Below the pieces are notes generated by a model that was given only the letters and a program-made list of their open reading frames with translations, had not been told where the DNA came from and did not search any database. Position numbers and translations under genes: made by a program. DNA of 64,000 nt from Permianibacter fluminis (lineage in GTDB: Bacteria; Pseudomonadota; Gammaproteobacteria; Enterobacterales; Permianibacteraceae). How positions within the stretch are numbered: the first letter of the stretch is position 1; the number at the start of each line of letters is the position of its first letter. Of this stretch, positions 9,880-23,266 are shown piece after piece. The DNA is taken from the NCBI RefSeq assembly GCF_013179735.1, contig NZ_JABMEG010000001.1:930001-994000 (forward strand). The letters run 5' to 3'.

Positions 9880-9909
9880 TTGCATACAAAACGTTTGCAG
9901 GCGTACTAT
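9880..9909 (+). promoter_or_regulatory. Candidate ohr promoter with embedded OhrR operator
   Basis: TTGCAT (9880-9885), an 18-bp spacer and TACTAT (9904-9909) form a possible promoter. Within it, TACAAAACGTTTGCA (9885-9899) is a 15-bp imperfect palindrome with the same layout as the OhrR box of Bacillus (TACAATTnAATTGTA). Placement between -35 and -10 suits repression. The rest of the 337-nt gap 9702-10038 holds the upstream repeat and terminator plus a leader of about 125 nt. Confidence 0.5.
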
Positions 9910-21532: not shown

Positions 21533-22846
21533 TCAAACCGCCGCAAACGCTTCCCGCGTCAAATTGCGCGGCGTGCCGTCGGTGATCAGCACGTTGTCCT
21601 CAATGCGGACTCCGCCAAACGGCTTGAACGCTTCCACTTTCGCCCAGTTCACGTGGGCGGCCTGCGGTTTGGCTTTCAGTTCATTCAGCAGCATGTCGAT
21701 GAAGTAGATGCCGGGTTCGACGGTGAACACCATGTCTTTTTCGATCTTGCGGGTCAGGCGCAGGTAGGGGTGCGCGGCTGGCGGCGGGTTCGGTGTGCCT
21801 TGCGGGTCGGCGACGCGGCCGGCGATGTCGTGCACCTGGATGCCGAGCAGGTGGCCGATGCCGTGCGGGAAGAAGGTCGAGGTGATGCCTTGTTCGACCG
21901 CGCTGTCGCCATCAATCGTGATCACGCCGAATTGCTTCAGCAAGCCACCGATGGCGCGGTTGAAGGCGATGTGCAGATCGACATAGCTTTGGCCCGGGCG
22001 GACCGCATCGATCAGTTTCAGCTGGTGCACATCGAGTGCAGCGATGAGTTCAGCGAATTCATTTTTGTCGCGGGCGTAGGTGCGGGTGATGTCGGAAGCG
22101 TAGCCGTTGACATTGGCGCCGGCATCGATCAGAAACGAGCGCGACTGCGCCGGTTTCTTGCTTTGCAGTTCGGTGTAGTGCAGTACGGCGCCGTGTTCGT
22201 TCAGCGCGACGATATTGCCGTACGGCAACTCGGATTCTTTCAGACCACTGGCACGCAAATAGGCGTAGTGAATGCCAAGCTCGCTTTCGCCGGCGAGAAA
22301 GGCATCACGCGCCGCGTTGTGGGCGCGGGCGCCGATGCGGTTGGCGGCGGCGATGTTTTCCACTTCCCACGCGGTTTTCAGGCCGCGCTGCCAGTGCAGC
22401 GGCGCCAGCAGGGTTTGCGGATTGAAGGCGGCGAAACCCCAGTCGTCGAAATGCGCGCTGTCTTCACCAATGAACGCGGCCTTACCGGTCAGCTTCAACA
22501 CCGATTTCGCTTCGGCCGGCGTGCGGATGACGGTGATGTCGAAATGGGCAACCCAGTCACCGCTCGGATCTTCCGGCACCACATGCCAGTAATCGAACGG
22601 CTGCAAAAAGATGAGCTGCGGCTTCTTGCCGATGCTGATCGAAACGAAGCAGCCCGGGTGGCGATCGAGCGGCAGCAGCTGCAGGAAGTTCGGGTTTGGC
22701 TTGAACGCGTAGTGGTAGTCGTCCTGGAAGGCGACTTTGGGAATGCCGGAATGGACGACGGCCTGATCAAAGCCTGAGGCGGCCAGCGCGGCCTCGTAGC
22801 GGGCCAGCACGGTGCGAAGGTGATCGGCGTACAGCGAAGGGCTCAT
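21533..22846 (-). CDS. pepQ: Xaa-Pro dipeptidase PepQ
   Basis: It encodes 437 residues. PepQ is a cytosolic M24 metallopeptidase splitting X-Pro dipeptides with two Mn ions. The five metal ligands are visible: the two Asp in DAGANVNGYASDITRTY, His in FFPHGIGHLLG, Glu in FTVEPGIYF and Glu in GGVRIEDNVLIT. The start is the ATG at 22846; the preceding TTG at 22849 is less likely. It is divergent from fadB, the same arrangement as in E. coli. Confidence 0.96.
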   Translation of the reverse strand: MSPSLYADHLRTVLARYEAALAASGFDQAVVHSGIPKVAFQDDYHYAFKPNPNFLQLLPLDRHPGCFVSISIGKKPQLIFLQPFDYWHVVPEDPSGDWVAHFDITVIRTPAEAKSVLKLTGKAAFIGEDSAHFDDWGFAAFNPQTLLAPLHWQRGLKTAWEVENIAAANRIGARAHNAARDAFLAGESELGIHYAYLRASGLKESELPYGNIVALNEHGAVLHYTELQSKKPAQSRSFLIDAGANVNGYASDITRTYARDKNEFAELIAALDVHQLKLIDAVRPGQSYVDLHIAFNRAIGGLLKQFGVITIDGDSAVEQGITSTFFPHGIGHLLGIQVHDIAGRVADPQGTPNPPPAAHPYLRLTRKIEKDMVFTVEPGIYFIDMLLNELKAKPQAAHVNWAKVEAFKPFGGVRIEDNVLITDGTPRNLTREAFAAV

Positions 22847-22977
22847 CAAACGCTCTCATAACAAAGGCGGCCGGCAGGGCCGGCGACGCGGAAATCGGGG
22901 TGGGTTGCGACTGTACCCGATATGGCCATCCGATCGCAGCCGGACCATTACCGTCCGCGATGGCCGTGGACAGGCCC

Positions 22978-23182: not shown

Positions 23183-23212
23183 TTGCATGCTGGTCGGGCC
23201 AGAGCCTACTAT
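23183..23212 (+). promoter_or_regulatory. Candidate fadB promoter with FadR-like operator
   Basis: TTGCAT (23183-23188), an 18-bp spacer and TACTAT (23207-23212) form a possible promoter 54 nt before the fadB ATG. Inside the spacer, CTGGTCGGGCCAG (23190-23202) is a palindrome matching the E. coli FadR core TGGTCnGACCA at all but one position. A separate TATAAT lies at 23123-23128 without a good -35. Confidence 0.55.
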
Positions 23213-23266
23213 CGGGACCCCGCGTATTTTCCAGTCAGCCTTTCTGCCCCGGCACGGAGACCACTC

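Follow-up and report, generated by a model that had tools for sequence, protein, structure and literature searches.

A probable FadR operator in the fadBA promoter spacer of Permianibacter fluminis and the division of fadB between FadR and PsrA

Which regulator acts on the fadBA beta-oxidation operon in a genome that encodes both FadR and a PsrA-type protein? The question is raised by a 64-kb stretch of the Permianibacter fluminis genome (hereafter, the window), for which a preliminary description had proposed a FadR-type site before fadB in place of the PsrA control used by many non-enteric gammaproteobacteria. The fadB and fadA genes are accompanied by a divergent pepQ-like gene (Table 1), and the divergent neighbour of fadBA in E. 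coli is pepQ as well. Directly upstream of the divergent pepQ start, positions 22868-22884 hold a GC-rich inverted repeat with a T-rich tail on the minus strand.

Table 1. Features of the fadBA region, in window coordinates.
Feature	Position	Strand	Basis
pepQ-like Xaa-Pro dipeptidase, divergent from fadBA	21533..22849	-	NF010133 above cut-off
-35-like hexamer TTGCAT	23183..23188	+	sequence; weak consensus match
FadR operator core (predicted) CTGGTCGGGCCAG	23190..23202	.	one mismatch to published core; exact in sister genome (G001) at -99
26-bp block (operator, -10, CGG) identical in own (G000) and sister (G001) genomes	23190..23215	+	alignment
-10-like hexamer TACTAT	23207..23212	+	identical in G001, TAGTAT in G002
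fadB, 715 aa	23267..25414	+	NF008727 and TIGR02437 FadB, above cut-offs
fadA, 387 aa	25539..26702	+	NF006510 and TIGR02445 FadA, above cut-offs

The site, its promoter and its conservation in relatives

The E. coli FadR core is given as CTGGTCnGACC(T/A)G in an excerpt of PMC9329746. The window site, CTGGTCGGGCCAG, was described as one base off the enterobacterial core, and this is borne out: the single difference is A to G at position 9, so that one half-site is imperfect (GGCCAG in place of GACCAG). When the 17-bp palindrome aaCTGGTCnGACC(T/A)Gtt is used instead, the core again matches with one mismatch, and the outer flanks (TG/AG) miss the lower-case positions. The proposed placement of the motif between a -35 and a -10 box also holds with exact coordinates. 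The spacer between TTGCAT and TACTAT measures 18 bp and holds CTGGTCGGGCCAG, 77 bp upstream of the fadB ATG, with 4 bp between the operator end and TACTAT. Both hexamers are weak (by eye, they agree with the sigma-70 consensus at 3/6 and 4/6 positions, respectively), and a consensus promoter scan with a threshold of 9/12 reported nothing at the fadB operator region. The same pair was said to be shared with ohr; TTGCAT-N18-TACTAT indeed recurs at 9880-9909, with CAAAACGTTTGC in the spacer, upstream of a putative ohr gene.

Within the window CTGGTCGGGCCAG is the sole match to the core with at most one mismatch, and at least one such match occurs in 7 of 100 shuffled windows. With a weight matrix built only from seven published E. 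coli FadR sites, the site scores 9.1 bits, ranks 14th among the 63,984 17-mers of the window and outscores one of the seven E. coli sites. This corresponds to p ~0.05 per 250-bp upstream region. The sequence alone is therefore only moderately unusual, and the fadB site is not decisive by itself.

Relatives add considerably to this picture. We compared the P. fluminis genome (G000) with the second genome of its genus (G001, the sister genome; FadB identity 79%) and with a family-level relative (G002). G000 and G001 agree at 26/26 bases over a stretch that opens with the operator and runs through the -10 box and the CGG after it. The conserved block begins exactly at the operator and includes all 13 operator bases. 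Its flanks are far less similar: in an alignment of 200 bp upstream of each ATG, 43/101 positions are identical before the block and 25/51 after it, and with 250 bp the counts are 50/151 and 25/51 (33-49% overall, gap columns excluded). The -35 place in the sister genome reads TTGTCA, with an 18-bp gap to the identical TACTAT. In G002 the promoter geometry is retained (TTGCCC, 18 bp, TAGTAT) and the spacer sequence is lost; a FadR-like site with two mismatches, CAGGTCTAACCAG, lies there 5 bp upstream of the -35 hexamer. Overall, the promoter-like pair is weak but conserved; the operator sits within its 18-bp spacer in two species and directly upstream of -35 in a third, so that its place in this promoter can shift.

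FadR and its sites across genomes

The preliminary description had suggested looking in the genome for FadR, for PsrA and for the motif at other fad promoters. Neither of the findings named there as refuting the idea, a genome lacking FadR or other fad promoters lacking the motif, was obtained. A FadR orthologue is present. One FadR was found, with the FadR_C domain (PF07840) at E=1e-52 and 179.7 bits (cut-off 23.6), and its TIGR02812 score (324.7 bits; cut-off 249.2) identifies it as a FadR of the gamma type. Its gene adjoins a convergent SpoVR gene, as in the fadR-ycgB pair of E. coli. Comparison with E. coli FadR (PDB 1hw1) gave E=2.5e-75, with an unbroken run of 43 identical residues over the winged helix. 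Only one other protein of the genome matches TIGR02812 at E<=0.001 (E=4e-5); by eye it reads as a HutC-type regulator, and its gene adjoins a hutG-like gene.

We then asked how FadR and the site are distributed over 69 genomes, using the 250 bp before fadB. The sample comprised 29 genomes of the order (own genome included) and 40 of 80 outgroup loci. For the order, 40 genomes were searched and 30 loci fetched, of which one (L137) was dropped from the counts as FadJ-like (41% identity). FadR scores above the cut-off in 24/29 order genomes and 2/40 outgroup genomes; one further genome (G036), in which a fragmentary FadR at the end of a contig falls under the cut-off, was counted as lacking FadR. 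A FadR core with at most two mismatches precedes fadB in 12/26 genomes with FadR and in 1/43 without it (Fisher test, 1.1e-5, a value that overstates independence because the genomes share ancestry). With at most one mismatch, the counts are 10/26 and 0/43. None of 89 permuted half-site palindromes matched in more than 2/26 FadR genomes. The two outgroup genomes that encode FadR (L029, Pleionea, and L030) are also the two with a one-mismatch site; across all 80 outgroup loci, a core with at most two mismatches was found at fadB in three (L029, L030 and L066), all of them within the tested 40. The P. fluminis site is conserved in relatives and FadR is encoded in the genome, though 14/26 genomes with FadR have no fadB site at up to two mismatches. 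Since it is kept between genomes and co-occurs with FadR, the fadB site is much more than a chance match.

As for other promoters, the own genome has genes of the FadD, FadE, FadBA and FadIJ types, while a search for FadL (PF03349, E<=0.001) gave no match in G000, G001 or G002, with a positive E. coli control. The 250 bp upstream of selected genes were scanned with an extended matrix, which combines the E. coli sites with eight fadB sites from other families; p-values were taken per gene against the 63,984 window 17-mers, uncorrected for the number of genes, and the start codons of fadE1, fabA, fadR, fadI, psrA and fadD were picked by eye from translations. The motif is clear at fadE1 and fabA, where the best site beats every window 17-mer in 3/3 genomes each. 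The best fadB site does so in G001 and G002 (p=0.022 in G000). The signal is weaker at fadR and fadI, whose best sites exceed all window 17-mers in G002 only: p=0.036 in G000 and p=0.022 in G001 for fadR, and p=0.043 in both for fadI. For fadD, the same 250-bp scan shows no FadR-like site in the own genome (p=0.47); the sister genome has a weak one (p=0.022). Upstream of fadR, TGCCGGTCCAACCAGAT in G001 corresponds to CGCCGGTCCAACCAGAT in G000, which suggests that fadR is autoregulated. According to an excerpt of PMC5343134, fadR itself belongs to the FadR regulon in some groups only.

At fabA in G000, 18 bp separate the end of the core from a CATAAT box downstream of it. A like-placed core in G001, TTGGTCGGACCAA, keeps the same 18 bp to CATAAT and scores only p=0.071, the best-scoring site there being at -62 and not aligned with the G000 site; in G002 the site is farther from its TATAAT. 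In the E. coli fabA probe shown in an excerpt of PMC4259882, the core ends by eye 20 bp before TATCCT, which we infer to be the -10 box of that gene. The spacing of the G000 sites thus puts the fabA site in an activator-like place and the fadB site in a repressor-like place.

The whole genome (4.36 Mb) was also scanned with the bare core. The pattern with at most two mismatches is not enriched (133 matches versus 429 for a reversed control), so such a count carries no signal, and at most one mismatch was taken instead. This gave nine cores, and 4/9 stand before genes of fatty-acid metabolism (fadB, fabA, fabI and acpP). The acpP core, CTGGTCGAACCAG (one mismatch), lies in the fabG-acpP gap (L222:5285-5297 in G000 and L228:4899-4911 in G001), ~97 bp before the ATG and directly upstream of the likely acpP promoter, and is kept in G001. 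At fabI, CTGTTCGGACCAG is found ~70 bp before the ATG (L178:1501-1513; G000:C2:387391). Another string, CTGCTCGGACCAG, lies ~66 bp before an ORF that by eye resembles a MerR/LiuR regulator (L177:1501-1513; G000:C1:2935099). This ORF adjoins an acyl-CoA dehydrogenase-like ORF, and it has no NCBIfam match at the strict limit of E<=1e-20.

Taken together, it is highly probable that CTGGTCGGGCCAG is a FadR operator through which fadBA would be repressed. The FadR reading of the site is supported by the presence of FadR in the genome, by the conservation of the recognition helix, of the operator and of its place, by the co-occurrence of site and regulator, and by the further sites. Judging from this position, a FadR dimer would, when long-chain acyl-CoA is lacking, sit on CTGGTCGGGCCAG between the -35 and -10 hexamers (roughly -29 to -17, assuming a transcription start near 23219) and exclude RNA polymerase. 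During fatty acid uptake, acyl-CoA, the presumed ligand, would bind the C-terminal domain of FadR and release the protein, and the release would switch the fadBA operon on. At fabA-fabB this FadR is probably an activator, acting from the site that ends 18 bp before CATAAT, in much the same way as at E. coli fabA.

FadR or PsrA at fadB

The contrast originally drawn between the two regulators stands only in part. The FadR orthologue and its sites agree with a control of the FadR type, but FadR does not take the place of PsrA in this genome, as both regulators are encoded. The search for psrA revealed, beside FadR, a regulator with the domains PF00440 (TetR_N) and PF17939 (TetR_C_30) over their cut-offs, the latter at E=2.6e-31. 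Its score for the NCBIfam PsrA equivalog NF053516 is 273.5 bits, under the cut-off of 300, and the protein is therefore termed PsrA-type. The psrA gene directly precedes a second fadE gene (fadE2) in all three genomes (L217, L224 and L230), and the promoter string TATGTTTCAAACA..TGTTT of psrA-fadE2 is strongly conserved among them.

The PsrA operator motif is CAAAC-N4-GTTTG. A PsrA operator appears at the regulator's own gene, with CAAACACTCGTTTA at -41 of psrA and similar strings in G001 and G002, and PsrA-type motifs occur upstream of psrA and fadI in G000, G001 and G002. Before fadB, the PsrA-type pattern is absent in all three genomes, the best match in G000 and G001 having four mismatches.

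Across the order, both regulators are present in 20/29 genomes. Allowing up to two mismatches, fadB in these 20 genomes carries a FadR site only in 5, a PsrA site only in 11, both in 4 (G016, G021, G022 and G039) and neither in 0. FadR without PsrA was found in four genomes, one of which has a FadR site at fadB. Four others (G005, G018, G024 and G030) encode FadB and PsrA, with no FadR over the cut-off and, at these thresholds, neither operator type at fadB. The PsrA motif matches 16/29 fadB regions; individual PsrA calls are noisy, because permuted controls match 2 to 5/29.

Against this background, three other accounts of the fadB site have to be weighed. It is unlikely that FadR acts at fadBA mainly as an activator, or that PsrA is the main fadBA regulator. 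In E. coli, FadR has a dual regulatory role (excerpt of PMC9329746), and the G002 site just upstream of -35 would suit activation, yet the spacer location found in G000 and G001 is one that we infer to suit polymerase exclusion. The presence of a PsrA-type protein in the genome speaks for PsrA, but the four mismatches of its best match before fadB speak against it. Even less probable is a chance match, with the block being a conserved promoter in which FadR has no role. The matches in shuffled windows, the E. coli-only matrix and the inclusion of the -10 box in the conserved block all point in this direction. However, conservation starts precisely at the operator and covers 13/13 of its bases, the promoter of the more distant G002, though its spacer sequence is lost, carries a FadR-like site close before -35, and both the co-occurrence with FadR and the permutation controls argue for a FadR site.

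A different GntR-family protein of the PdhR or LldR type could in principle use the fadB site, and this too we consider very improbable. Such regulators recognise similar TGGT...ACCA palindromes, the core motif being common to GntR relatives, and in many other genomes GntR proteins match TIGR02812 below its cut-off. In P. fluminis, however, the HutC-like appearance of the single other TIGR02812 match at E<=0.001 makes a PdhR- or LldR-type regulator unlikely. The site also tracks FadR scoring over the cut-off in the 69 genomes, yet 36/38 FadR-less outgroup genomes do have sub-cut-off matches. A FadR operator that would repress fadBA remains the preferred reading.

How does this arrangement compare with known systems? 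The 38 FadR-less outgroup genomes belong mostly to Pseudomonas, Stutzerimonas and Marinobacter. At fadB, all of them lack a FadR core of at most one mismatch, and a single one (L066) carries a core with two. In Pseudomonas, PsrA is a TetR-family regulator with another motif. The PsrA-fadBA5 system of Pseudomonas has the control of fadBA by long-chain fatty acids in common with the system proposed here. The E. coli FadR-fadBA system (excerpt of PMC4259882) likewise has a CTGGT..GACCAG-type palindrome before fadBA and includes fabA among the targets, and the E. coli FadR winged helix is the one shared over 43 residues. The two differ in that the E. coli fadBA site, CTGGTACGACCAG, is not CTGGTCGGGCCAG, and the search for the PsrA-type C-terminal domain PF17939, positive in the own genome, found none in E. 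coli. Moreover, in E. coli the operators of fad genes usually overlap the -10/+1 region (excerpt of PMC9329746), whereas the fadB site here occupies the -35/-10 spacer. Shewanella has FadR and PsrA in one genome, as here, and according to excerpts of PMC3223726 and PMC5343134 its FadR regulon is contracted and PsrA runs fatty-acid degradation; Shewanella fabA is bound by FadR (excerpt of PMC4537474). Unlike in Shewanella, FadR-type sites are found here at fadBA and fadE1, and PsrA-type motifs at psrA-fadE2 and fadI. The family of P. fluminis has a different split between FadR and PsrA from that of Shewanella.

The chances are about even that fadBA is a contested promoter, swapped between FadR and PsrA across the order, with the family of P. 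fluminis being FadR-only at fadB and leaving psrA-fadE2 to PsrA, and with FadR possibly controlling acpP and fabI as well, through their one-mismatch sites. A FadR operator at fadBA is already textbook knowledge for E. coli; the lineage described here may be new, as may a census that covers both FadR and PsrA at a single promoter. The titles and abstracts surveyed revealed no such census, and we claim no priority. A comparative study of 2009 by Kazakov and others is cited in PMC5343134.

The lineage adds a case in which a FadR operator stands at fadBA despite a PsrA-type regulator in the same genome, and the freshest aspect is the division of fadB between FadR and PsrA over the order. The replacement of one regulator by another at a single promoter thereby becomes testable, and in-between genomes, with both sites, are available for this.
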